64,000 bases of DNA, taken from Hydrogenophaga sp. Lineage in GTDB: Bacteria; Pseudomonadota; Gammaproteobacteria; Burkholderiales; Burkholderiaceae_C. Position 1 is the first letter of the stretch, and every line of letters starts with the position of its first letter. Below, one piece after another: positions 7,281 through 28,141 of this stretch. The translations under genes were made by a program, and so were the position numbers. The notes under the pieces are model-generated. The model saw only the letters and a program-made list of their open reading frames with translations, was not told where the DNA came from and did not search any database. Where the stretch lies: contig NZ_JAHCKL010000005.1 in the NCBI RefSeq assembly GCF_026125785.1, positions 62,001-126,000 of the forward strand, given 5' to 3'.

Positions 7281-7888
<608 letters not shown>

Positions 7889-15989: not shown

Positions 15990-16793
15990 TCAGGCCGTGC
16001 GCGCCAGCGCGTCGGGTGCCTGCAGCGCGGCCAGGCCACCGACCACGTCGCCCACCACGATGACCGCCGGGCTGCCCAGGCCTTCATGGTCCAGCGTGGC
16101 GCGCAACTCGCCGAGCGTGGACACCGCGTGGCGCTGCGACGGCAACGTGGCGTTCTGCACGATGGCCAGGGGCGTGTGCGCCGGCAGGCCTGTAAGCAGG
16201 TCCCGCTGGATCTGCGCGGCGCTGGAGACGCCCATGTAGATCACCAGCGTGAGCCGTGCCTGGTGCGCGGTGCGCGCCAGGGCCTGCCAGTCGGTGCCGC
16301 TGTCCCCGGGCTTGGCATGGCCGGTGACGAAGACCACGCCGTGCGCATGCTCGCGGTGCGTCAGCGGCACGCCCAGGGTCGTGAGCCCGGCCAGGCCGGC
16401 GGTGATGCCGTTGACCACCTGCACCTCGATGCCAGCGGCGCGCAGGTGTTCCACCTCTTCGCCGCCGCGCCCGAAGATGAACGGGTCGCCGCCCTTGAGG
16501 CGAACCACCATCTCGCCTTCGCGCGCGGCCATGACCATGAGCTTCTCGATGAAGGCCTGCGGCGTGCTCTTGCAGCCACCGCGCTTGCCCACGTGCACGA
16601 TGCGCGCGCCAGGACGCGCATGGGCCAGCACGCCATCGCTCACCAGGTCGTCGACCAGCAGCACCGTGGCCGAGGCGATGGCCTTGACCGCCTTGAGCGT
16701 GAGCAGTTCCGGGTCTCCCGGGCCGGCCCCGACCAGGGCCACGGTACCGGGCAGGAATTCAGAGGGCGTGGGCATGGCGGGCTGCGGGTTCAT
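15990..16793 (-). CDS. cobA: Uroporphyrinogen-III C-methyltransferase (SUMT)
   Basis: A 267-residue S-adenosylmethionine enzyme that makes precorrin-2, the precursor of siroheme, the cofactor of the nitrite reductase encoded upstream in the same operon. Motifs: VGAGPGDPELLTLKA near the N-terminus, VRLKGGDPFIFGRGGEE, and a mid-protein GITAGLAG. Only the methyltransferase is present, without the dehydrogenase-chelatase part of CysG. The start overlaps the ybiB end: ATG at 16793 (35-base overlap) is chosen, while ATG at 16775 is also possible. Its position last in the nas operon supports a siroheme role. Confidence 0.92.
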   Translation of the reverse strand: MNPQPAMPTPSEFLPGTVALVGAGPGDPELLTLKAVKAIASATVLLVDDLVSDGVLAHARPGARIVHVGKRGGCKSTPQAFIEKLMVMAAREGEMVVRLKGGDPFIFGRGGEEVEHLRAAGIEVQVVNGITAGLAGLTTLGVPLTHREHAHGVVFVTGHAKPGDSGTDWQALARTAHQARLTLVIYMGVSSAAQIQRDLLTGLPAHTPLAIVQNATLPSQRHAVSTLGELRATLDHEGLGSPAVIVVGDVVGGLAALQAPDALARTA

Positions 16794-17691
16794 GGTGGGA
16801 CAGCTCTCGCAAGATGTGTTCCACCTGCGAGGCGATGGGGGTGGGTACTGGTTGTTCGCCGGCAAGCACGGCACGGATGTAAGCAGCCGTTGCAGCCGCG
16901 TCCACCGCAGGCAGCGAGGGCAGTTGCGCCAGCGGCCCGTCCTGTGCGGCCTGCACTTCTGTGCGCAGGCCGTCGCGGAACACTTCCATGCGCGGTGTGC
17001 GGCGTGCATCGGCCACGGGCTCGCCCTCGGTGCCGCGCAGCAGCAGGGCGTGCGCGCCGGTCAGCGTCCAGGTGGCGGCCATGGCGCCGGCGTATTCGGG
17101 GTGGGTGTAGCTGCCGACGATGAAGGCCGCACCCCGGCAGGGATTCATGAGCTTGACCAGGCTGTGCGCGGGATTGCGCAGGCCCACCGCGCGGCGCACG
17201 TCGAGCAGGCGCTTGAGGCTTGGCAGCAGCCGCTCGGTCGGTACGAAGGCCAGTTCACCGGGGGCGGGCGCCCGCCCGGGTTCCCGTGGCGCCACGTCCA
17301 GCGCAGCCAGCACGTCGGCGGAGGTCACGCGCCGGTCTTCGGTGGGCGTGCCGTGCAGCAGCACCGCCGCGCCCCGGCGCGCCAGCAGCAAGGCCAGCAG
17401 CGGCGTGAGCACCGGCAGCTTGCGCGCGCCGTTGTAGCTGGGCAGCACCACGGTGGGGTGGCCTGCGTCCGGCAGGCGCTGCAAACGTGCGTGTGTGGCG
17501 TCCAGGAAGCCGGCCATCTCTTCGGGGGTCTCGCCCTTGATGCGCATGGCCAGGCAGAAGCCGCCAACCTCCAGGTCGCTTACCGTGCCGTCCAGTACCT
17601 GGCCCAGCAGGTCGGCGGCCTGCGCTCGGTCGAGCGCACGCGCGCCGTCCTTGCCGCGGCCGATTTCCTTGATGTATTGGCTGATGCCCAT
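16759..17691 (-). CDS. ybiB: YbiB-like DNA-binding protein, anthranilate phosphoribosyltransferase fold
   Basis: A 310-residue protein resembling anthranilate phosphoribosyltransferase (TrpD2 group). The N-terminal YIKEIGRGKDGAR and DLEVGGFCLAMRIKGET match Escherichia coli YbiB, a protein reported to bind nucleic acid without enzyme activity. The start at 17691 matches that N-terminus. It sits between nasA (72-base gap) and cobA (overlap), so it is transcribed with the nitrate genes; no direct role in nitrate use is known. A phosphoribosyltransferase role is possible but unlikely. Confidence 0.85.
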   Translation of the reverse strand: MGISQYIKEIGRGKDGARALDRAQAADLLGQVLDGTVSDLEVGGFCLAMRIKGETPEEMAGFLDATHARLQRLPDAGHPTVVLPSYNGARKLPVLTPLLALLLARRGAAVLLHGTPTEDRRVTSADVLAALDVAPREPGRAPAPGELAFVPTERLLPSLKRLLDVRRAVGLRNPAHSLVKLMNPCRGAAFIVGSYTHPEYAGAMAATWTLTGAHALLLRGTEGEPVADARRTPRMEVFRDGLRTEVQAAQDGPLAQLPSLPAVDAAATAAYIRAVLAGEQPVPTPIASQVEHILRELSHHEPAARHAHAL

Positions 17692-17763
17692 GGTGTGCGG
17701 CGGATTGTCCGGCAAGTTTGATGACTTGTCGTTATATGCAGACATGGCCTCTGGCCGGCTGCT

Positions 17764-20580
17764 TCAGGCCGCCAGAGACGCCGTGCGCGCCGGGTGGGCC
17801 TGCACCAGCCGGCGCAGCTCGGGCACGCAGGAGCCACATTGCGTGCCGCACTGAAGCCGGTTCTGCAGGGCCGCCAGGCGCTGGCTGGCGTCGCCCTCGC
17901 AACGCGCCAGCTCGTCTGCGATGGCCGCGTCGGTCACCTGGAAGCAGGTGCAGACCGTCCGTGCGCGCGGGCCCACGTTCACCGGCGCCCTGGCCCCGGG
18001 CATGAGCAGCGAACGGCCATAGGTCTCGGCCGGCAGTTCCTCCTGCAGCACGGGCCGGATCCAGGCTTCGGCCTGCGTATCGCCCGCCAGCAGGACACCT
18101 TCCAGGCGCGTGTGACCGCCTTCTTGAACCCGCCTGACGGTGCGCCGCTGGCCGCGCTGCTGGTCGGCGTAGCGCAGGGCATCGCGCGTATCCAGCCCCA
18201 GCAAGGCCTCGATCTGCTCCAGCACCTCTGGCGCCGGAGCCACATGCCCGGCGGCGCGGAACAGCACGCCGGTGCGGCCCAAGGTGTCGGCCTGCGCCAG
18301 CGGCACACCGTTGGCAAACGGGACACAGGCCGCGAACGGAAAGCGGGCCATCAGCGCACGCAGGGCCGCGTGCGCGCCCAGGGCCTGTGCGTCCGGCAAC
18401 CAGGCCAGGCCCAGCAGGGTCCACGGCAGGTCGGCCTTGAGCACCTTCACCGCCGTGTGCTTGAGCTCGGGCTGGCGCGAGGTCGGGCAAAAAGCGGGGC
18501 TGGTGAGCGCGTTGACGCCGGCCAGCACCTCGCCATTGCTGGCCTGGCCGCCCAGGTACTCGCCGCCCCAATGCATGGCGATGAAGGCCTGGGACGGGCC
18601 GAGTTCATCGCTGGGCTGCGCCGGCACCAGGATGGCGCCACGCCGGCTCGTCACGTACACCAGATCGCCCGAACGGATGCCCTGGCGAGCCATGTCCTGA
18701 GGGTGCAGTGCCACCACGGGTTCGGGCACGTGGCCGAAGAGGCGCCCCAGCGTGCCCGTGCGGGTCATGCCATGCCACTGGTCGCGCAGGCGGCCGGTGA
18801 TCAGCGAGAAGGGGTAGCGCGCCTCGCGCGGTTCGGCCAGCGGCGCATAGGGCAGGGCGGCAAAGCGCGCCCTGCCATCCGGTGTGGGAAACACACCATC
18901 CTCGTACAGGCGCGCCCGGCCCTGGCTGTCCCCGGCGCGCAGCGGCCATTGCTGAGGGCCCTGCTGCTGCAGCATGGCGTAGGACAGGCCGGTGATGTCC
19001 AGGTCGCGGCCGCGCGTGGACTCGCGGTGCTCAAGCCAGAGGCTCTCGGCGTCCGGGTAGGGAAACAGCGTGGGCAGGCCGGGCCGCAGCCGTGCCTCCA
19101 GCCGCTGCGCGAAGTCCACCGCGATGCGCCAGTCGTGCCGCGCCTGGCCGGGCGCGGGCACCGCCGCGCGCACGCGGCTGATGCGCCGCTCGCTGTTGGT
19201 GACGGTGCCGTCTTTCTCTCCCCAGGTGGTGGCGGGCAGCAGCAGGTCGGCGTAATCGCAGGTGGCGGCGCCCGCGTAGGCCTCCTGCACCACCACGAAC
19301 TCGGCACGCTGCAGCGCGCGGCGCACCGTGGCCTGATCGGGCAGGGACTGGGCCGGGTTGGTGCAGGCGATCCAGAGGGCGCGGATCTCGCCGTCGGCCG
19401 CGGCCTGGAACATCTCCACCGCCGTTTTGCCGGGATGCGCCGGTACCGACGGCACGCCCCACAGGGCGGCCACTTCGGCGCGGTGCTCCGGGTTGGCCAT
19501 GTCGCGGTGGGCCGACAGCAGGTTGGCCAGGCCGCCCACTTCGCGCCCACCCATGGCGTTGGGCTGGCCGGTCAGGCTGAACGGTCCGGCGCCGGGTTTG
19601 CCGATCTGGCCCGTGGCCAAGTGCAGGTTGATCAGCGTGGCATTCTTCGCCGTGCCGCTGCTGCTCTGGTTCAGTCCCTGGCAATACAGGCTGAGCGTGG
19701 CGGGCGACTGCGCGAACCAGCGCGCGGCGGTGTACAGGTCTTCCTTTGGCAGGCCGCAGACCTGAGCCACCTGGGCCGGCGTGCACTCGCGCACCAGCGC
19801 GCGCAGTTCGTCGAAACCGCTGGTGTGCGCCGCGATGTAGACGGCATCGGTCCAGCCCTCCCACAGCATGATGTGCAGCAGGCCATGGAACAGCATCACG
19901 TCGGTGCCGGGCTGCAGCGGCAGGAACAGGTCGGCCAGGCTGGCGGTGTCGGTGCGGCGCGGGTCGGCCACGATCACCTTCATGGCCGGGTTCTTCTGTT
20001 TCGCGTCCTCGATGCGGCGGAACAGCACCGGGTGCGCGAAGGCGGTGTTGCTGCCGACGATGAACAGGCAACTGGCATGGTTCACGTCGTCGTAGCAGGC
20101 CGGCGGTGCGTCCGCGCCCAGGGTGAGCTTGTAGCCAGCCACGGCGCTGCTCATGCACAGGCGCGAATTGGTGTCGATGTTGTTGGTGCCGACGAGGCCC
20201 TTGGCCAGCTTGTTGAAGGCGTAGTAGTCCTCCGTCAGCAACTGGCCGCTGACATAGAAGCCGACCGCATCGGGGCCGTGGCGGTCGATGACGTCGGCGA
20301 AGCGGTCCGCCGCCAGGTCCAGCGCCATGTCCCACGCCAGAGGCTGGGGTTCGGCGCCTCGCTGCGGGCGTTGCTGCGGTTGCAGCAGCCGGGTTTGCCG
20401 CGCGACGGCGGGCAATGCCGTGAGGTGCAGCGTCTGCCCCTTGGTGCACAGGCGGCCGAAGTTCGCCGGGTGCTGGGGGTCGCCGCGCACGCCGGTGATC
20501 TGACTGCCCTGGCTCTCGATCAGCACCCCGCAGCCCACACCGCAGTAGGGGCAGGTCGAGCGGGTGGTGGTGGGTGTCAT
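17764..20580 (-). CDS. nasA: Assimilatory nitrate reductase catalytic subunit NasA
   Basis: A 938-residue molybdo-bis-MGD enzyme reducing nitrate to nitrite in the cytoplasm; no signal peptide is seen. The N-terminal [4Fe-4S] site is Cys10, Cys13, Cys17 and Cys45 (CPYCGVGCG, then LCTKG). Next come the molybdopterin domains (NSRLCMSSAV carries the likely Mo region; NATLINLHLATGQIGKPGAG) and the C-terminal dinucleotide-binding domain. Past residue about 860 is a BFD-like [2Fe-2S] domain with CTCFQV and CGTQCGSC, as in Klebsiella NasA. The start overlaps the nirD stop (ATGA). MogA, needed for its cofactor, is encoded 10 kb away in this window. Confidence 0.96.
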   Translation of the reverse strand: MTPTTTRSTCPYCGVGCGVLIESQGSQITGVRGDPQHPANFGRLCTKGQTLHLTALPAVARQTRLLQPQQRPQRGAEPQPLAWDMALDLAADRFADVIDRHGPDAVGFYVSGQLLTEDYYAFNKLAKGLVGTNNIDTNSRLCMSSAVAGYKLTLGADAPPACYDDVNHASCLFIVGSNTAFAHPVLFRRIEDAKQKNPAMKVIVADPRRTDTASLADLFLPLQPGTDVMLFHGLLHIMLWEGWTDAVYIAAHTSGFDELRALVRECTPAQVAQVCGLPKEDLYTAARWFAQSPATLSLYCQGLNQSSSGTAKNATLINLHLATGQIGKPGAGPFSLTGQPNAMGGREVGGLANLLSAHRDMANPEHRAEVAALWGVPSVPAHPGKTAVEMFQAAADGEIRALWIACTNPAQSLPDQATVRRALQRAEFVVVQEAYAGAATCDYADLLLPATTWGEKDGTVTNSERRISRVRAAVPAPGQARHDWRIAVDFAQRLEARLRPGLPTLFPYPDAESLWLEHRESTRGRDLDITGLSYAMLQQQGPQQWPLRAGDSQGRARLYEDGVFPTPDGRARFAALPYAPLAEPREARYPFSLITGRLRDQWHGMTRTGTLGRLFGHVPEPVVALHPQDMARQGIRSGDLVYVTSRRGAILVPAQPSDELGPSQAFIAMHWGGEYLGGQASNGEVLAGVNALTSPAFCPTSRQPELKHTAVKVLKADLPWTLLGLAWLPDAQALGAHAALRALMARFPFAACVPFANGVPLAQADTLGRTGVLFRAAGHVAPAPEVLEQIEALLGLDTRDALRYADQQRGQRRTVRRVQEGGHTRLEGVLLAGDTQAEAWIRPVLQEELPAETYGRSLLMPGARAPVNVGPRARTVCTCFQVTDAAIADELARCEGDASQRLAALQNRLQCGTQCGSCVPELRRLVQAHPARTASLAA

Positions 20581-20960
20581 GCCGTGGCGGTTCTGCGCGC
20601 CGGGCCCGCCACGGGGCGTGTCGGCTCGGTGGCGTGCGTGGCCAGCTCGGCCGCATCCAGATGCACCACGCCATCCTCGACCTTGACCGCGAAGCGCGGC
20701 GTGCAACCCTCGTCGGGCTCGCGGGCGCAGCCGCTGTCCAGTCCTATGGTCCAGTTGTGCAGCGGACAGGCCACCTGCGTGCCGAAGACGATGCCCTGGC
20801 TCAGCGGGCCGCCCTTGTGCGGGCAGCGGTCGAGCAGGGCGAAAACCTCGTCACGGTCGTTGCGGAACACCGCCACGTCCAGGCCACGCTCCCGCCGCAC
20901 GCAGCGCGAGCCCAGCACCGGAATCTCGTCCACCCGGACGATGGGAATCCACCCGTTCAT
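20577..20960 (-). CDS. nirD: Nitrite reductase small subunit NirD with intact Rieske site
   Basis: A 127-residue Rieske-fold protein partnering NirB. Unlike Escherichia coli NirD, which lacks cluster ligands, this protein keeps the full Rieske pattern: Cys46-x-His48, sixteen residues, Cys65-x2-His68 (CPHKGG and CPLHNW). It should therefore be able to carry a [2Fe-2S] cluster and pass electrons. The start codon overlaps the nirB stop (ATGA), and its own stop overlaps the nasA start, so nirB-nirD-nasA are translationally chained. Confidence 0.94.
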   Translation of the reverse strand: MNGWIPIVRVDEIPVLGSRCVRRERGLDVAVFRNDRDEVFALLDRCPHKGGPLSQGIVFGTQVACPLHNWTIGLDSGCAREPDEGCTPRFAVKVEDGVVHLDAAELATHATEPTRPVAGPARRTATA

Positions 20961-23452
20961 GCGGGACTCCCTTCGGTCGCGACGGAGGCCGCGTGGATGG
21001 GGATGAACTGACGGGTATCGACCGCGGCCTTCTGGTGCTCGAACCAGGGGTCGGGCTCGCCGTCCAGCGCGAACTGCAACTGCGCCCACAGCGCCTTGCG
21101 GCCCTCGGCATCTTCCAGGATGCGCTTCTTGACGTAGTCCAGCCCGACGCGGTTGACGTAATGCACCGTGCGCTCCAGGTACCAGCCTTCCAGCCGGTAG
21201 AGCTGCATGAAGGCGCCGGTGTACTCCAGCACCTCTTCGGCCGTCTTGAGCTTGGTGAAGAAGTGCGCGACCTCGGTCTTGATGCCGCCATTGCCGGCGA
21301 TGACCATTTCCCAGCCCGAGTCCACGCCGATGATGCCCACGTCCTTGATGCCGGCTTCGGCGCAGTTGCGCGGGCAGCCGCTCACCGCGAACTTGACCTT
21401 GTGCGGCGCGTACATGCGCCACATCGCGCGCTCCAGGTCCTTGCCCATCTGGGTGCTGTCCTGCGTGCCCATGCGGCACCACTCGCTGCCCACGCAGGTC
21501 TTTACCGTGCGCAGGGCCTTGGCATAGGCGTGTCCGCTGGGCATGCCAATGTCGTTCCACACGGCCTGCAGGTCCTCCTTCTTCACGCCCAGCAGGTCGA
21601 TGCGCTGGCCGCCGGTGACCTTGACCGTGGGGATCCGGTACTTGTCCACCACATCGGCGATGCGGCGCAGCTCGGCCGCCGTGGTCTCGCCACCCCACAT
21701 GCGCGGAATCACACTGTAGGTGCCGTCTTTCTGGATGTTGGCGTGGGCGCGTTCGTTGATGAAGCGGCTCTGCGGGTCGTCCCTGGCTTCCTTGGGCCAG
21801 GTGCTGATGAGGTAGTAGTTGACGGCCGGCCGGCAGGTCGCGCAGCCATTGGGCGTGCGCCAGCCCATGCCCGAGAACACCTCGGCGATGCTGAGGTACT
21901 TCTGCGTCCGGATCGCGTCCCGCACCGCCTGGTGGCCGTGTTCGGTGCAGCCGCACATGGCCTTGAGCTTGGGTGTGGCCGAGTAGTCGCCGCCGGCGGT
22001 GAACATCAGGATCTGCTCCACCAGCCCGGTGCAGGAGCCGCAGGAGGCGCTGGCCTTGGTGTGCTTGCGCACCTCCTCCAGTGTGAACAGCCCCTTGTCC
22101 TTGATGGCCTTGCAGATGCTGCCCTTGGTGACGCCATTGCAGCCGCACACCTCGTCCGTGTCGGCCATGGCGGCCGCCTTGCTGTGTCCTTCGTGGCCCA
22201 CGTCGCCGATGTTGGACTCACCGAACATCAGTCGGTCGCGGATGTCGGCCACGCTGCGACCTTCGCGCAGCAGCTTGAAGTACCAGCTTCCGTCCACCGT
22301 GTCGCCATACAGGCAGGCGCCCACCAGCTTGTCGTCCTGGATCACCAGCTTCTTGTAGATGCCGCCCGAGGGATCGCTCATCACGATCTCCTCGGTGCCT
22401 TCGCCGCCCATGAAGCGGCCGGCGGAGAACAGGTCGATGCCCGTGACCTTGAGCTTGGTGGAGGTCAGTGAACCCACGTAGCGGCCGATGCCGAACTCCG
22501 CCAGGTGCGTGGCCAGCACCTTGCCCTGCTCGAACAGCGGTGCCACCAGGCCGTACGCGGTGCCGCGGTGCGCGGCGCATTCGCCCACCGCGTAGATGCG
22601 TGGGTCGGTGGTGGTCTGCAGCGTGTCGCTGACCACGATGCCGCGGTTCACGTGCAGGCGCATGGACTCGGCCAGTGCCGTGTTGGGGCGAATCCCCACC
22701 GCCATCACCACCAGATCGGCGGGCACTTCGCTGCCGTCCTTGAAGCGAACGGCGCGCACGCGGCCGTCTTCGCTGGCCAGCAGTTCCTGCGTCTGCGCGT
22801 TCATGAGAAAGCGCATGCCGCGCGCCTCCAGGGACTGGCGCAGCAACTGGCCGGCCACGTCGTCGAGCTGGCGCTCCATCAGCCATGGGCCCACGTGCAC
22901 CACGCTGACCTGCATGCCGCGCTTCATCAGGCCATTGGCGGCCTCCAGGCCCAGCAGGCCGCCGCCGATCACCACGGCATGGCGGTACTGCGTGGCCGCG
23001 TCGATCATGGCCTGCGTGTCGGCGATGTCGCGGTAGGCCAGCACGCCCTGCAGGTCCTTGCCCGGGATGGGCAGGATGAAGGGGTGGGAGCCGGTGGCCA
23101 GGATCAGCCGGTCGTAGGGCACGCTCACCGCGTCGCCCGCGGTGGTGGTGCCATGCACCACCCGGCGAACGCGGTCCACGGTGTGCACGGTGCAGCCCGC
23201 ATGCAGGGTGATGCCGTTGTCGCGGTACCAGGCCCAGTCGTTGAGGACGATCTCCTCCAGCGTCTGCTCGCCGGCCAGCACCGGCGAGAGCAGGATGCGG
23301 TTGTAGTTGGGATGCGGCTCGGCGCCGAACACCGTGACCTCGTAGAGGTCCGGCGCCAGCCGGATGAGTTCCTCCAGCGCGCGCACCCCGGCCATGCCGT
23401 TGCCCACCATCACCAGTTTCTGCCGCGGACGCGGCGGTTGGCTCATGTCCAT
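20957..23452 (-). CDS. nirB: NAD(P)H nitrite reductase large subunit NirB
   Basis: An 831-residue enzyme that reduces nitrite to ammonium with six electrons from NAD(P)H. Order of parts: FAD/NAD(P)H oxidoreductase domain (VVGNGMAG-type motif near the N-terminus, VVIGGGLLGLEAA near residue 150, DLVVMAVGIRPNT near 245); two BFD-like [2Fe-2S] segments (CGCNGVTKGSICKAI with CGSCTGLV, then CATCRPAVN); the nitrite/sulfite reductase domain with the siroheme-[4Fe-4S] pattern CVGSEWC and CPRNC. Siroheme needs CobA, encoded at the operon end. The start is at 23452, with an alternative ATG two codons later. nrtD ends one base upstream. Confidence 0.96.
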   Translation of the reverse strand: MDMSQPPRPRQKLVMVGNGMAGVRALEELIRLAPDLYEVTVFGAEPHPNYNRILLSPVLAGEQTLEEIVLNDWAWYRDNGITLHAGCTVHTVDRVRRVVHGTTTAGDAVSVPYDRLILATGSHPFILPIPGKDLQGVLAYRDIADTQAMIDAATQYRHAVVIGGGLLGLEAANGLMKRGMQVSVVHVGPWLMERQLDDVAGQLLRQSLEARGMRFLMNAQTQELLASEDGRVRAVRFKDGSEVPADLVVMAVGIRPNTALAESMRLHVNRGIVVSDTLQTTTDPRIYAVGECAAHRGTAYGLVAPLFEQGKVLATHLAEFGIGRYVGSLTSTKLKVTGIDLFSAGRFMGGEGTEEIVMSDPSGGIYKKLVIQDDKLVGACLYGDTVDGSWYFKLLREGRSVADIRDRLMFGESNIGDVGHEGHSKAAAMADTDEVCGCNGVTKGSICKAIKDKGLFTLEEVRKHTKASASCGSCTGLVEQILMFTAGGDYSATPKLKAMCGCTEHGHQAVRDAIRTQKYLSIAEVFSGMGWRTPNGCATCRPAVNYYLISTWPKEARDDPQSRFINERAHANIQKDGTYSVIPRMWGGETTAAELRRIADVVDKYRIPTVKVTGGQRIDLLGVKKEDLQAVWNDIGMPSGHAYAKALRTVKTCVGSEWCRMGTQDSTQMGKDLERAMWRMYAPHKVKFAVSGCPRNCAEAGIKDVGIIGVDSGWEMVIAGNGGIKTEVAHFFTKLKTAEEVLEYTGAFMQLYRLEGWYLERTVHYVNRVGLDYVKKRILEDAEGRKALWAQLQFALDGEPDPWFEHQKAAVDTRQFIPIHAASVATEGSPA

Positions 23453-23453
23453 G

Positions 23454-24302
23454 TCAGGCTTTCATCGCAGCGGCAGCGCCCGCCGCTCCCTGGCGCGCGG
23501 TGGCGATGGGTTCGACCTTGCGCTGTTTCTCGTACAGGAAGGTCAGGATCTCCTGCCGGCAGTGGTTGTAGGCCGGGTTCTCGGCCAGCGCGATGCGGTT
23601 GCGCGGGCGCTCCAGGGGCACCTCCAGGATCTGGCCGACGGTCGCGGCGGGGCCGTTGGTCATCATCACCACGCGGTCCGACAGCAGCACCGCCTCGTCC
23701 ACGTCGTGGGTGATCATCATCACCGTGTTGCCCAGTTCGCCCTGGATGCGGATCACCTCGTCCTGCAGGTGGGCACGCGTGAGCGCATCCAGCGCGCCGA
23801 AGGGTTCGTCCAGCAGCAGCACCTTGGGTTCCATGGCCAGCGCGCGCGCAATGCCCACGCGCTGCTTCATGCCGCCGGAAATTTCGGAAGGCAGCCGGTT
23901 CAGCGCGTGCGACATGTTGACCATGTCCAGGTTGTGCAGGATCCAGGCCTTGCGCTCGGCCGCGGACTTGCTGTCGCGAAAGATCTTGTCCACCGCGATC
24001 TCGACGTTCTGGTAGACCGTGAGCCAGGGCAGCAGGGAGTGGTTCTGGAACACCACGGCACGGTCCGGGCCGGGCGCGTTGACTTCGCGGCCGTCCACGA
24101 TCACGCCCCCGTTCGTGGCCTTGAGCAGGCCTGCCACGATGTTGAGCACGGTGGACTTGCCGCAGCCCGAGTGACCGATGAGCGAGATGAACTCACCGCG
24201 CCGAACGTCCAGGTTGATGCCCTTGAGCACCGGGTTGACCGCGCCGCCGTTGCCGCGGAAGGTCATGTCGACCTGGGAGATGCTGAGGTATGCGTTGCTC
24301 AT
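23454..24302 (-). CDS. nrtD: Nitrate ABC transporter ATP-binding protein
   Basis: A 282-residue ABC ATPase of the nitrate/sulfonate/taurine group. Walker A GHSGCGKST, signature SGGMKQRVGIARAL and Walker B VLLLDEPFGALD are intact, followed by the switch His in MMITHDVDEA. It energises uptake with the NrtB permease and NrtA receptor encoded upstream. There is no fused NrtC-type regulatory subunit as found in cyanobacteria. The stop is one base from the nirB start, indicating tight coupling. Confidence 0.93.
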   Translation of the reverse strand: MSNAYLSISQVDMTFRGNGGAVNPVLKGINLDVRRGEFISLIGHSGCGKSTVLNIVAGLLKATNGGVIVDGREVNAPGPDRAVVFQNHSLLPWLTVYQNVEIAVDKIFRDSKSAAERKAWILHNLDMVNMSHALNRLPSEISGGMKQRVGIARALAMEPKVLLLDEPFGALDALTRAHLQDEVIRIQGELGNTVMMITHDVDEAVLLSDRVVMMTNGPAATVGQILEVPLERPRNRIALAENPAYNHCRQEILTFLYEKQRKVEPIATARQGAAGAAAAMKA

Positions 24303-24325
24303 GTGCGTGCTTCCGTTGGGTGGGG

Positions 24326-25189
24326 TCAGGCAGCCGATGTGCCGCGTGTGACGGCGCGCCCAATCCAGGCGACGATGCGGTCCAGCAGGAAGCCGATCAG
24401 GCCGACGTAGACGAGCGCGAGGATGATGTCGCTGATGCGAGAGGAGTTCCACGCATCCCAGATGAAGAAGCCGATGCCCACGCCGCCGATGAGCATCTCC
24501 GCCGCGATGATGGCCAGCCAGGACAGGCCCACGCCGATCCGCAGCCCGGAGAAGATGAAGGGCGCGGCCGCCGGCAGCATGATCTTGATGAAGTACTCGA
24601 TGCCATTGAGCCGGATCACGCGCGCGACGTTGCGGTAGTCCTCCGGGATGTTGCGGATGCCGATCGAGGTGTTGATGATGATGGGCCAGATCGAGGTGAT
24701 GAAGATCACGAAGATGGCCGACGGATGGCCGTCGCGAAAGCCGGCCAGCGAGATCGGCAGCCAGGCCAGGGGCGGCACGGTGCGCAGCACCTGGAACAGC
24801 GGGTCCAGGCCGCGCAGCGCCCAGGTGGACTGGCCCACCAGAACACCCAGGCTCACACCGGCCAGCACAGCCAGCGAGTAGCCATAGGCCACGCGCTTGA
24901 GGCTGGCCAGCAACTGCCAGGCAATGCCGACGTCGTTGCCGCCGTTGTCGTAGAACGGATGCACGATCAGCTCCCAGGTGTCTTCCACCACCTTGCTGGG
25001 TGGTGGCAGCGCCGCGCCGGGGCGCGTGCCCAGCATCTCCCACAGCACCACCAGCAGGCCGATGACCAGCAGCGGCGGCAGCACATGGTTCATGAAAACG
25101 CGGCCTGCTGACCTGAGCCAGGCGGGCAAGGCCGCCGGTGCGGCGGGCGCGGCCAGGCGGATGGGTTCAACGGTGTCGGTGGTGCTCAT
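24326..25189 (-). CDS. nrtB: Nitrate ABC transporter permease
   Basis: A 287-residue inner-membrane permease with six or so membrane helices and the cytoplasmic coupling EAA-like region seen as EDYRNVARVIRLNGIEYFIKIMLPAAAPFIFSGLRIG (shown here only by key residues: E-D-Y-R-N near 178 and L-P-A-A near 202). Belongs to the NitT/TauT family. It is 37 bases downstream of nrtA and 23 bases upstream of nrtD. Confidence 0.92.
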   Translation of the reverse strand: MSTTDTVEPIRLAAPAAPAALPAWLRSAGRVFMNHVLPPLLVIGLLVVLWEMLGTRPGAALPPPSKVVEDTWELIVHPFYDNGGNDVGIAWQLLASLKRVAYGYSLAVLAGVSLGVLVGQSTWALRGLDPLFQVLRTVPPLAWLPISLAGFRDGHPSAIFVIFITSIWPIIINTSIGIRNIPEDYRNVARVIRLNGIEYFIKIMLPAAAPFIFSGLRIGVGLSWLAIIAAEMLIGGVGIGFFIWDAWNSSRISDIILALVYVGLIGFLLDRIVAWIGRAVTRGTSAA

Positions 25190-25226: not shown

Positions 25227-26534
25227 TCAGGCGCTCTTGATGGTCTTGAGGCTCAGGCTGTCGAGGTACTTCTTCGGGTTGGCCGGATCGAACACCTTGC
25301 CATCGAAGAACTTCTCCACGCCGCGCGAGGTGGAGGTCGGGATGTCCTTGGCGGCCACGCCCAGTTCCTTGGCGGCTTCGCGCCAGAGGTCCTCGCGGTT
25401 GACCTTGGCGATCAGCGCCTTCGTGTCCAGATTGGCCGGCAGATAGCCCCAGCGGATGTTCTCCGTGAGGAACCACAGGTCGTGGCTCTGGAAGGGGTAG
25501 CTGGCATGGTCTTTCCAGAAGCGCATCTGGAACTTGCTGTTCATCTCCACCCGGCCGGTGCCGTAGTCGAAGTCGCCCTTGACGCGGTCGATCACGTCGG
25601 CCACCGGCGCGTTGATCCAGCGTCGGCGAGAGCAGATCTCGGCCACCTCGGCGCGGTTGGCCGGGTCTTCGCACCACATCTGCGCTTCCATGACCGCTTT
25701 CAGCAGGGCCTTGGTGGCATTGGGGTTGGCGCTCACGTAGTCGGCGCGCATGGCGAAGGCTTTCTCCGGGTGGTTCATCCAGAGCTCGCTGGTGGTGAGG
25801 GCCGTGTAGCCGATCTTCTGGTTGATCAACTGGCGGTTCCAGGGCTCGCACACGCAGAAGGTGTCCATGCTGCCCACCTTCATGTTGGCGACCATCTGCG
25901 CGGGAGGCACCACGATGGTGGTGATGTCTTTGTTGGGGTCCACGCCACCGGCGGCCATCCAGTAGCGGATCCACATGTCGTGCGTGCCACCGGGGAAGGT
26001 CATCGCCGCATTCACCGGTTTGCCGGTCTTCACGCGCTTGGCGAGCAGTGCCTTGGCGAACTCCTTGGTGTCCAGGCCGACCTTGAGGTCCTTGTACTCG
26101 TCACCCACCGAGATGCATTGCCCGCCCAGGTTCAGGCGCGCCAGGATCTGGATCGGCACCGGCACGTTGTTGGCGGTGACCGCGCCCGTGCTGATGAGGT
26201 AGGGCATGGGCGTGAGGATGTGCGCACCGTCGATGCCGCCCTTGCCCGAGCCCAGCACGAGGTTGTCGCGCGTGGTGCCCCAGGACGATTGCTTGAGCAC
26301 TTCCACCTCGGTCATGCCGTGCTTCTTGAAGAAACCCTTCTCGTCGGCGACGAACAGCGGCGCGGCATCGGTCAGCGCAATGAACCCCAGCTTGGCGGCC
26401 TTGGTCTCCAGTGCGCCCGACGCGCGGGCGCGGGTGCTCAACAGGCTGCCGGCCAACGCGGCCCCGCCCAGTGCGGTGGCTTTCTGGATGACGGCGCGGC
26501 GCGACAGGGGCGTGGCGTTCGACGGGTTCTGCAT
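25227..26534 (-). CDS. nrtA: Nitrate ABC transporter substrate-binding protein
   Basis: A 435-residue receptor of the NrtA/CmpA family. The N-terminus carries a twin-arginine signal (SRRAVIQKATALGGAALAG, residues about 10-28), suggesting export in folded form through Tat; mature sequence begins near residue 38. Binding-site region motifs include TDAAPLFVADEKGFFKKHG and FPGGTHDMWIRYWMAAGG. The ATG at 26534 is preceded by AAGGAG at proper spacing. It is the first gene of the operon and lies behind a sigma-54 promoter and an ANTAR-type attenuator, described separately. Confidence 0.93.
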   Translation of the reverse strand: MQNPSNATPLSRRAVIQKATALGGAALAGSLLSTRARASGALETKAAKLGFIALTDAAPLFVADEKGFFKKHGMTEVEVLKQSSWGTTRDNLVLGSGKGGIDGAHILTPMPYLISTGAVTANNVPVPIQILARLNLGGQCISVGDEYKDLKVGLDTKEFAKALLAKRVKTGKPVNAAMTFPGGTHDMWIRYWMAAGGVDPNKDITTIVVPPAQMVANMKVGSMDTFCVCEPWNRQLINQKIGYTALTTSELWMNHPEKAFAMRADYVSANPNATKALLKAVMEAQMWCEDPANRAEVAEICSRRRWINAPVADVIDRVKGDFDYGTGRVEMNSKFQMRFWKDHASYPFQSHDLWFLTENIRWGYLPANLDTKALIAKVNREDLWREAAKELGVAAKDIPTSTSRGVEKFFDGKVFDPANPKKYLDSLSLKTIKSA

Positions 26535-26586: not shown

Positions 26587-26648
26587 AAAACGAAAACGGC
26601 GCCCATTGCGGTCCTGGCCGCAAGGCCGGGAGCGCAATGGACGCCGTT
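26587..26648 (-). terminator. Attenuator terminator in the nrtA leader
   Basis: On the minus strand AACGGCGTCCATTGCG (26648-26633) pairs along all 16 positions, with one G-U, with CGCAATGGGCGCCGTT (26610-26595). A small inner GGCC/GGCC hairpin sits in the loop, and TTCGTTTT (26594-26587) follows. It lies 52 bases before the nrtA start, so it would stop transcription ahead of the whole operon unless prevented. Its 5' arm begins exactly at the second hexaloop. Confidence 0.88.
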
Positions 26649-26652
26649 GTCC
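26639..26652 (-). promoter_or_regulatory. ANTAR target hairpin P2 (antiterminator)
   Basis: GGAC, hexaloop AACGGC, GTCC: a 4-bp stem closing a six-base loop with A at position 1 and G at position 4. Its loop and 3' strand are the first ten bases of the terminator's 5' arm, so P2 and the terminator cannot form together. That is the layout expected for an ANTAR-protein antitermination switch. Confidence 0.8.
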
Positions 26653-26669
26653 GTGTCTGGGAAGACGGG

Positions 26670-26701
26670 GAAGAAACCAGCCGCCGTTGGCCGCCTTCTT
26701 C
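26670..26701 (-). promoter_or_regulatory. ANTAR target hairpin P1
   Basis: GAAGAAGGCGGCC (26701-26689) pairs with GGCTGGTTTCTTC (26682-26670) with one G-G mismatch and two G-U pairs, around the hexaloop AACGGC (26688-26683). The loop is identical to that of P2 and has the A1/G4 bases required by ANTAR proteins. The predicted transcript begins only a few bases before it. Confidence 0.8.
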
Positions 26702-26859: not shown

Positions 26860-26874
26860 GCACGAAATCCGTGC
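26860..26874 (-). promoter_or_regulatory. NtrC-like enhancer site upstream of nrtA
   Basis: GCACGGATTTCGTGC has the NtrC core GCAC-N7-GTGC as a dyad, about 155 bases upstream of the predicted start. A weaker partner, GCAC-N7-AGGC at 26831-26845, is centred 29 bases away, close to the three-turn spacing of paired NtrC sites. The flanking T and A of the full consensus are missing. Confidence 0.5.
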
Positions 26875-26887
26875 GCGATGCCGGCGG

Positions 26888-28141
26888 TCAGGGCGGGCTG
26901 TGTGGCAGCACGTCGGCCATGGCCAGCACCGCTTCGGCCACCTCGATCAGGCGGCGGTTCTGGTTCATGGCCATCTGGCGCATGGTCTTGTGCGCCGCTT
27001 CTTCGGAGAGCTGGCGGTGCGCCATCAGCAGGCCCTTGGCGCGTTCGATCACCTTGCGCTCGTTGAGGCTGGCGCGCACCGTGTCCAGTTCTTCGCCCAT
27101 GGTCTGCAGCCGGCGCGCCTGTTCCTGCACCAGCTCCAGGATGGAGCGCTCCAACTGATGGCCATAGCCCTGCGCGGGGGTGTCCGGTGCGCCTGTGGCG
27201 TTGAAGAAGGAGAGGGCGTCCGCGTCGCGGCCCGGTCTCGGAGCCAGCGCGTGGAAGCTCTCCAGCTCCCGGGTGGCGGCGGCGATCTTGTCCTCGCAGG
27301 CGCGCAGCAGGTCCAGCGCCAGCCGGTCTTCCACGCCCTTCATGCGGTCCATGCGGCGGCTGCAGCAGTCGAACCAGGTCTGGCTGAGTTGGGCGTTGAG
27401 CGGCGAGCCATGGGCGGCGGTGCACAGCACGCGCCGCAGCCGCTCCAGTTCGGCCAGGGTGGCGCCGGCCTGGCTGGCGGCCCAGAGTTCGGCCACCGGC
27501 GGGTGGCCGAACTCGCTGAACACCTGCAGGCAACGCTCCTGCGAATCGATCAGGTGCAGCAGGCGTTGCTGCCCGGCCGCATCGGCGCGGCCCGAGGCGA
27601 ACAGCGCGGAGCCCAGGGCGCGCTCCTGACCGGCGAACTCCTTGCCCTGCATGAAATTGAACAGCGCCACCAGCAGGCGTGAGATCTCCGGGTCGCTGGC
27701 GCTGTCCGCCGCCTCGAACACCACCGCCAGCAGCCCCGCGATCAGGCGCACGTAAGCGTCCGTCGCCTGGCCGGTGGACCAGGCCAGCGCAGCGATGCGC
27801 TCGCGCAGGCCGCCCAGTGCGTCCAGACCCTGCAGCACGTAAGCGATGCGGCTGAACAGGCGCGCGCCCTGGCCCTGGCGGACGGTGTCGGTGTCCAGGC
27901 TGTCGAAACAGGCGCGCAGTTCGGCCTCGGTCTGTTGGCAGGTCCGCACCTGCTGCGCCAGCATGTCGGCGAACTGCGTGCCCTGGGAGCCCAGGTACAG
28001 ATTGGAGAGCCCGCGCTCGCGCTGCAGGCCATGGACCAGGCGGCCGGTCACATTCACCAGCGCGCTGGTCAGTGCGAGCTGGCGCAGTTCGGCGATCTCG
28101 CAGCGCTTGGCCGCGACAAGAAAGGTCAGGCCCGATTTCAT
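26888..28141 (-). CDS. nasR: NasR-like nitrate/nitrite-responsive antiterminator (NIT + ANTAR)
   Basis: A 417-residue protein. About residues 25-290 form an all-helical NIT-like nitrate/nitrite-sensing region (motif [18 protein letters not shown], matching the conserved RERG arginine region of NIT domains). About residues 345-405 form an ANTAR RNA-binding domain: ERAKGLLM, then [23 protein letters not shown]. In Klebsiella, NasR binds the leader of the nas operon when nitrate or nitrite is present and blocks termination. Here the gene sits directly upstream of nrtA on the same strand, with the matching RNA elements between. The start at 28141 gives a normal N-terminus. tsaD is divergent (70-base gap). 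Confidence 0.93.

Follow-up and report, generated by a model that had tools for sequence, protein, structure and literature searches.

A probable NasR-type antitermination leader ahead of the nitrate assimilation operon of Hydrogenophaga and its relatives

The leader that precedes the nitrate assimilation operon of a Hydrogenophaga sp. is, with high probability judging from its sequence, a transcription-antitermination leader of the NasR (NIT-ANTAR) type that gates expression of the operon. It was examined within a window of 64,000 nt, i.e., the whole stretch of DNA that was analyzed. The interpretation had been proposed in a first-pass annotation of the same DNA, and is supported by the hexaloops and stems kept in relatives and by covariation scores. 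The mechanism is already known from Klebsiella, and the leader appears to be an added member of the NasR/ANTAR antitermination leaders; what is new concerns the promoter logic, conservation across the clade, a connection to the P11 and narK RNA families and, as the most novel part, a folded linker between the two hairpins. The sigma-54 box, the NtrC-like palindrome and the mini-hairpin in the P1-P2 linker are additions to the earlier annotation.

Two hairpins and a terminator in the leader

The following elements were identified:

26670-26701, minus strand: P1 hairpin, loop AACGGC (26688-26683); read from the letters and by folding, with covariation
26639-26652, minus strand: P2 hairpin GGAC-AACGGC-GTCC, the putative antiterminator; read from the letters and by folding
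26587-26648, minus strand: intrinsic terminator, arms 26648-26633 and 26610-26595, followed by TTCGTTTT; by folding

The arms of P1 (5′, 26701-26689; 3′, 26682-26670) form 12 pairs with one G.G mismatch, and those of P2 (GGAC, 26652-26649; GTCC, 26642-26639) enclose a loop at 26648-26643. Both loops are hexaloops with A at position 1 and G at position 4 (A1/G4), closed by a C-G pair. Folded alone, P1 had an energy of -17.3 kcal/mol (0 of 200 shuffles as stable), P2 of -5.5 kcal/mol (3 of 200) and the 16-pair terminator of -43.3 kcal/mol (0 of 200). The 5′ arm of the terminator uses the P2 loop and the P2 3′ arm, and the two structures are therefore mutually exclusive; as the terminator far outweighs P2 in energy, the switch must be kinetic. 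When the 171-nt leader was folded whole, the terminated form was obtained (z -5.26). The earlier positions of the two AACGGC hairpins (26701-26670 and 26652-26639) thus proved exact when the minus strand was read, and the 16-bp terminator beginning at the P2 loop (26648-26595) and its exclusion of P2 through the shared segment were both confirmed.

A strict pattern (two C-G-closed A1/G4 hexaloops 18-62 nt apart, a terminator of at least 10 contiguous pairs at the second loop, and a T-run) matched one place in the window when both strands were searched, and none in 30 dinucleotide shuffles. A general terminator scan missed the leader terminator, the loop of which is too long for the scan, and flagged P1 instead.

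The NasR protein and the operon

The genes on either side of the leader are:

26888-28141, minus strand: nasR, NIT-ANTAR protein (417 aa) that presumably senses nitrate/nitrite and acts as an RNA-binding antiterminator (Pfam, PDB)
25227-26534, minus strand: NrtA-like nitrate-binding protein, predicted first gene controlled (Pfam NMT1_2, E 4.5e-103, scanned without the first codon)
24326-25189, minus strand: nitrate ABC transporter permease (TIGR01183, 317.4 bits, cut-off 209)
23454-24317 (scanned stretch, start approximate), minus strand: nitrate ABC transporter ATPase (TIGR01184, 349.4 bits, cut-off 291.8)
20957-23452, minus strand: NirB, nitrite reductase large subunit (TIGR02374, 910.1 bits, cut-off 578)
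17764-20580 (scanned stretch, start approximate), minus strand: NasC-like molybdopterin nitrate reductase (Molybdopterin and BFD-like matches)

That the adjacent upstream gene encodes a NIT-ANTAR protein was borne out by Pfam matches to NIT (E 6.7e-59) and ANTAR (E 6.8e-19); no other ANTAR domain was found in the assembly, which is 93.8% complete. NasR aligned over nearly its whole length (residues 8-408) with PDB 4akk, ‘nitrate regulatory protein’ (E 3.3e-51), and was 39-41% identical to Enterobacterales plasmid homologues among the matches listed. Its residues R43 and R237 align to 4akk chain positions 77 and 264 and are invariant in nine homologues. We take the nitrate-contacting arginines of the K. 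oxytoca NIT domain to be R49 and R236, assuming a 28-residue offset between that numbering and 4akk; R43 and R237 would then correspond to them.

The NrtA-like gene is preceded by AAGGAG at 26546-26541, and an NrtA-like gene lies directly 3′ of the leader in 78 of the 79 relatives with enough flanking sequence (the exception is L108; L107 was too short for this count). The reductase at 17764-20580 fell short of the curated cut-off with both the NasC and the Fdh-alpha model. Beyond it, a YbiB-family gene and a uroporphyrinogen-III methyltransferase gene (siroheme) occupy 15990-17745 of the window.

A conserved, probably nitrogen-responsive promoter region

Two candidate promoter elements lie between nasR and P1:

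26717-26731, minus strand: sigma-54 -24/-12 promoter box TGGCACGTTAACTGC, one mismatch to TGGCACN5TTGCW
26860-26874, minus strand: NtrC-like palindrome GCACGGATTTCGTGC, a consensus match that begins 144 nt upstream of the sigma-54 box

The sigma-54 box ends 15 nt before P1, and 104 of the 105 parsed leaders retain it; in the window alone, sigma-54-like matches with up to two mismatches were in no excess (39 versus 46 by chance). From the sigma-54 spacing that we assume, transcription would start at about 26705, which would put P1 at the 5′ end of the message. A sigma-70 promoter scan found none. NtrC-like palindromes, called with what we take to be the NtrC-site consensus, were present within 500 bp upstream of 67 of 77 leaders (76 named loci and the window), compared with 3.65 expected from shuffles.

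The conserved promoter sites, together with the published Pseudomonas NalA leader (available text of PMC12830290 and PMC3973561), suggest a two-input AND gate, in which nitrogen limitation would start the transcript and nitrate would let the polymerase through.

Conservation and covariation among relatives

The named relatives were the best 80 of 349 found, and included Hydrogenophaga, Polaromonas, Variovorax, Ramlibacter, Rhodoferax, Xylophilus and Ideonella. A betaproteobacterial host had been proposed, in agreement with the same-genus genomes, among them Hydrogenophaga sp. IBVHS1. The sigma-54 box, P1, P2 and the 3′ arm of the terminator were present at all 28 nasR loci of a first set (the window and 27 same-genus genomes), with one G-U pair in the P2 of L026. 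P1, P2 and the terminator were found by script at 77 of the 80 named loci; in two of the exceptions (L064 and L103) the P1 stem is broken by a mismatch, as judged by eye, and the third (L107) ends 246 nt past nasR. The first-pass annotation had named the loss of hexaloops or stems beside a retained nasR and operon as evidence against its reading; relatives that keep nasR and the operon were found to keep the hexaloops and stems as well.

Loop sequences were counted in 105 parsed leaders of 108 examined; many rows represent the same species twice (85 are distinct), and the search patterns, which required A1/G4, hit the anticipated position in 105 of the 108. The P1 loop was AATGGC in 53, AACGGC in 38 and another A1/G4 loop in 14, and the P2 loop was AACGGC in 85 and AAAGGC in 20. 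The earlier observation that both loops have the same sequence holds for the window but not as a general feature, as P1 carries AACGGC in 38 of the 105 and is more often AATGGC; identity of the loops as a meaningful feature was dropped. Two types of leader were distinguished. In type I (the window, Hydrogenophaga, Polaromonas and others) the P2 loop is AACGGC and the loops are 38-43 nt apart (34 in L087); in type II (20 rows; Variovorax, Xenophilus L108, Curvibacter L050 and others) the P2 loop is AAAGGC and the loops are 28-30 nt apart.

Covariation was assessed in an alignment (A4) of 33 distinct type I leaders, all of which have the C-G closing pair on both loops. Changes on both sides were seen at four of six P1 pairs and at 3 of the 16 terminator pairs, with 97.0% of terminator cells paired. 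The joint covariation score of P1, linker helix and P2 (0.242) and that of the terminator (0.169) each exceeded all 500 shuffles and all slid versions, although the sequences are related and kinship can push scores past shuffles without structure. The number of pairs changed on both sides was no higher than in shuffles (216/500 for P1, linker and P2; 359/500 for the terminator). Three of the four P2 pairs are invariant and the fourth varies once in the 33 leaders; since P2 is nearly invariant, covariation speaks neither for nor against it.

In Variovorax-type leaders (e.g., L067, L083 and L106), P1 is preceded by an additional hairpin (AGACC/GGTCT, GGACC/GGTCC) that lies downstream of the sigma-54 box; judged by eye, most of its loops violate the A1/G4 rule. 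The P2 of a Burkholderia pyrrocinia leader (L161:4095-4108) was drawn as GGAT-AACAGC-GTCC, in which loop position 4 is A, not G.

A probable folded linker between P1 and P2

A further element lies between the two hairpins:

26655-26666, minus strand: linker mini-hairpin GTCT-TCCC-AGAC; by folding and conservation, weak in single sequences

The linker of the window is 17 nt long unfolded and 5 nt if the mini-hairpin forms, and a 70-nt cut from the window folds P1, the linker hairpin and P2 together. Type I linkers measure 18.5 ± 2.1 nt. Of 64 distinct ones, 63 formed a hairpin, after which 5.9 ± 2.0 nt stayed unpaired; in shuffled linkers it formed in a mean of 29.2 of 64 (maximum 35 in 20 rounds) and left 13.0 nt. 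Type II linkers measure 4.8 ± 0.5 nt (4-6 nt) and had no hairpin in 20 of 20. For these statistics the upper parts of P1 and P2 were constrained to form; without this constraint, the top of P1 and P2 both folded in 53 of 64 type I and 20 of 20 type II leaders, and were absent in the window stretch so cut.

Taken singly, the linker hairpins are weak: the median p against shuffles was 0.135, and it fell below 0.05 for 12 of the 65 type I linkers. In A4 only one of the four linker-helix pairs shows changes on both sides, and an out-of-register version with six pairs had no covariation support. Fisher combination gave p 2.3e-5 for 14 type I lineages (L053, L063, L105 and L018 were computed but left out) and p 6.2e-5 for eight long class linkers, values that are descriptive only because the rows were picked after the sequences were seen. 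Long linkers elsewhere also fold: a 7-bp hairpin was found in L154 (the second leader of a Hydrogenophaga-genus genome), Burkholderia pyrrocinia L161 and Ideonella dechloratans, and a 5-bp hairpin in the P11-type leader. Against shuffles, three of these long linkers reached p values of only 0.060 (L154), 0.010 (L161) and 0.053 (L163). The hairpins of Hydrogenophaga, Polaromonas, Burkholderia, Ideonella and the P11-type leader are unrelated in sequence.

The spacing between ANTAR hairpins is known to matter in E. faecalis, where, in the available text of PMC3369931, natural eut linkers are 5-12 nt long and linkers of 3 and 14 nt drastically reduce induction; the addition of 20 nt is reported to abolish EutV antitermination in vitro (PMC8934654, available text). 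The linker left after folding (~6 nt) is close to the 4-6 nt of type II and within the eut range; we lean slightly towards a role for this fast-evolving third hairpin in restoring the short P1-P2 distance that an ANTAR dimer needs, such that long linkers are tolerated. No mention of a linker hairpin in ANTAR leaders was found in the available text of the literature searched, which covered few subscription journals.

For the linker only, a different pairing was considered, in which GTC(T/C) pairs with the P2 5′ arm GGAC and, as an anti-antiterminator, would keep P2 sequestered when the RNA is in its terminated form. RNAalifold picked this pairing on A4, with columns 32-34/52-54 paired in 32 of 33 leaders each and column 35/51 in 29 of 33. 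However, it shows no changes on both sides, P2 being nearly invariant, and an A at column 35 in four sequences breaks it, while an A-U pair keeps the hairpin in two sequences. Other lineages lengthen the hairpin instead (AAGTC/GACTT in Polaromonas L093, GGTCT/GGACC in L079, TCGGGT/ACCCGA in L110 and CCGGT/ACCGG in L086), and GTC occurs in 0 of 20 type II linkers. The anti-antiterminator is therefore considered unlikely, and the spacer is the preferred reading. Spacing is the argument that a single ANTAR dimer has to contact P1 and P2 simultaneously, and the folded linker offers a cheap and direct test of that requirement.

The spacer reading does not fit every leader exactly. Linker lengths in the class range from 2 to 77 nt, and some long linkers remain long when folded; 21 unpaired nt remain after folding at the second site of G007, and L087 has a 12-nt linker without a hairpin. 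At 10 of 34 class loci (L127, L133, L138, L139, L145, L151, L153, L112, L114 and L116) automatic detection of P1 and P2 gave no result. L116 coincides with L139, and L121 with L128; the linkers of L127, L133 and L138 were delimited by eye. In L138 (G438) the linker hairpin bears an A1/G4 hexaloop of its own, AAAGCC, giving three candidate ANTAR loops.

Distribution of the leader with ANTAR proteins

An RNA model (R1) was built from 33 leaders beside nasR in Hydrogenophaga and its kin, the leader of the window included. Among 67 genomes of the genus, R1 and NasR were found in the same 52 and were missing from the same 15 (the lists were compared by reading). This co-occurrence is weak functional evidence because the two are neighbors, and a lost or unassembled region removes both. 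The class-wide tie to ANTAR genes is stronger evidence. R1 matched 36 of 369 genomes across the class, of which the genome of the window and G001 belong to the genus. Of the 35 R1 places outside the genus, 25 have an ANTAR gene on the same strand within 500 nt upstream, of which 6 also match NIT and 19 do not; 10 have no ANTAR match within that distance, and for four of these there is none on the same contig. One antisense row (G112) was dropped from the class places, and the NIT and ANTAR matches of G078 lie in two pieces. As both NIT-bearing and NIT-less ANTAR genes stand beside R1, the RNA goes with ANTAR proteins irrespective of the type of sensor; one leader shape would thus pair with NIT-ANTAR proteins (NasR) in some clades and with NIT-less ANTAR proteins (NasT type) in others.

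Several genomes carry further elements. ANTAR-only matches occur in 19 of the 67 genus genomes, not all near nasR. In G297, a protein with ANTAR and PilJ matches and a response-regulator match below cut-off is encoded ~7 kb from nasR (L158:1294-2820). G007 has a second leader of the same type (L154:3003-3138) upstream of a formate/nitrite transporter gene (PF01226), which suggests a two-site NasR regulon. In G295 (7% contamination) there are two leaders, at L155:4264-4369 and 7758-7863, each before its own NrtA-like gene, and G309 has a weaker second leader (L156:8961-9056; 31.4 bits) just before nirB.

Proposed mechanism

Under nitrogen limitation, NtrC and sigma-54 would start transcription ~4 nt before P1. 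Without nitrate or nitrite, the 16-bp terminator, which forms in the computed fold, would stop transcription before nrtA. When nitrate or nitrite is bound by the NIT domain, NasR would bind the A1/G4 hexaloops of P1 and P2 and hold P2; the held P2 would deny the terminator its 5′ arm, allowing read-through into nrtA-ntrB-ntrCD-nirB-nasC. The steps of NasR binding and read-through are proposed by analogy with Klebsiella nasF and E. faecalis eut. The linker mini-hairpin, of which the fold and conservation were computed, may assist by bringing P1 and P2, separated by 17 nt, to within ~5 nt of each other.

It could be argued that the hairpin and T-run are merely the 3′ terminator of nasR, with P1 and P2 incidental. 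The terminator is downstream of nasR on the same strand, where it would end the nasR transcript, and it may well do so too. This reading does not account for the sigma-54 box kept between nasR and the terminator in 104 of 105 leaders, for the covariation of P1 and the A1/G4 identity kept by both loops, or for the strong second leaders of G007 and G295, which do not directly follow nasR. As the sole function of the structure, termination of nasR is thus very unlikely, and an antitermination leader remains the preferred reading.

Comparison with known leaders and Rfam families

The closest known system is nasF/NasR of Klebsiella oxytoca, which in the available text of PMC3369931, PMC3369936 and PMC7496416 shares with the present leader a NIT-ANTAR protein, A1/G4 loops on P1 and P2, the overlap of P2 with the terminator, and a nitrate assimilation operon; NasR SELEX (PMC7496416, available text) also yielded a C-G closing pair on the hexaloops. 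In the Enterobacterales leader used for comparison (Pantoea deleyi), the linker is open and 9 nt long, with no hairpin; in the window it is 17 nt long and predicted to fold. The eut/EutV system of E. faecalis shares the dual hexaloop motif and the exclusion of P2 by the terminator (PMC3369931, available text), but has another sensor and operon, and its linkers of 5-12 nt contrast with the 17 nt, when unfolded, of the present one.

No Rfam family reached its gathering score at the leader, the one match in the window being a tRNA, or in eight relatives scanned; the apparently uniform NasR leader family of Hydrogenophaga and its kin is thus unflagged by Rfam. Below threshold, RF00625 (P11) matched the leader over its full length (1-139; 30.4 bits, gathering score 70) and RF03032 (narK RNA) matched with 21.1 bits (gathering score 43.2); the other sub-threshold matches were mostly microRNA models on the terminator. 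With the P11 model, which was built by others, the leader was the sole place found in its genome (E 1.3e-4).

The Pseudomonas NalA/P11 leader has the same order of parts, i.e., sigma-54 box, P1, linker hairpin, P2 and terminator, and in L111, which exceeds the P11 threshold, a NirB gene lies downstream. Its partner is NasT with NasS (PMC12830290, available text), unlike the NasR found here. NalA is described as a NasT antitermination leader in the available text of PMC12830290, and a sigma-54 box and terminator are reported for it in that of PMC3973561. P11 and NalA are both described at the nirB operon, and are probably one leader. By their anatomy, P11, filed as ‘Pseudomonas sRNA’, and narK RNA would both be ANTAR leaders, which for P11 agrees with the available text of the NalA literature; two Rfam entries would thereby be tied to ANTAR antitermination.

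A predominantly trans-acting role as a small RNA for the short terminated transcript, as claimed for P11, the closest Rfam family and one filed as an sRNA with reported effects on C. elegans behavior (PMC10977744) and on the P. aeruginosa nitrogen assimilation operon (PMC12080996; available text of both), is extremely unlikely given that the position, the exclusivity of terminator and P2 and the ANTAR neighbors fit a cis leader, as does the description of NalA (PMC12830290, available text).

Both families reach their thresholds in G220, where they lie 3.7 kb apart; the narK RNA immediately follows an ANTAR gene, and P11 precedes a NirB gene. The loci L111, L141 and L157 also bear on P11 and narK RNA as ANTAR leaders of the nas region.
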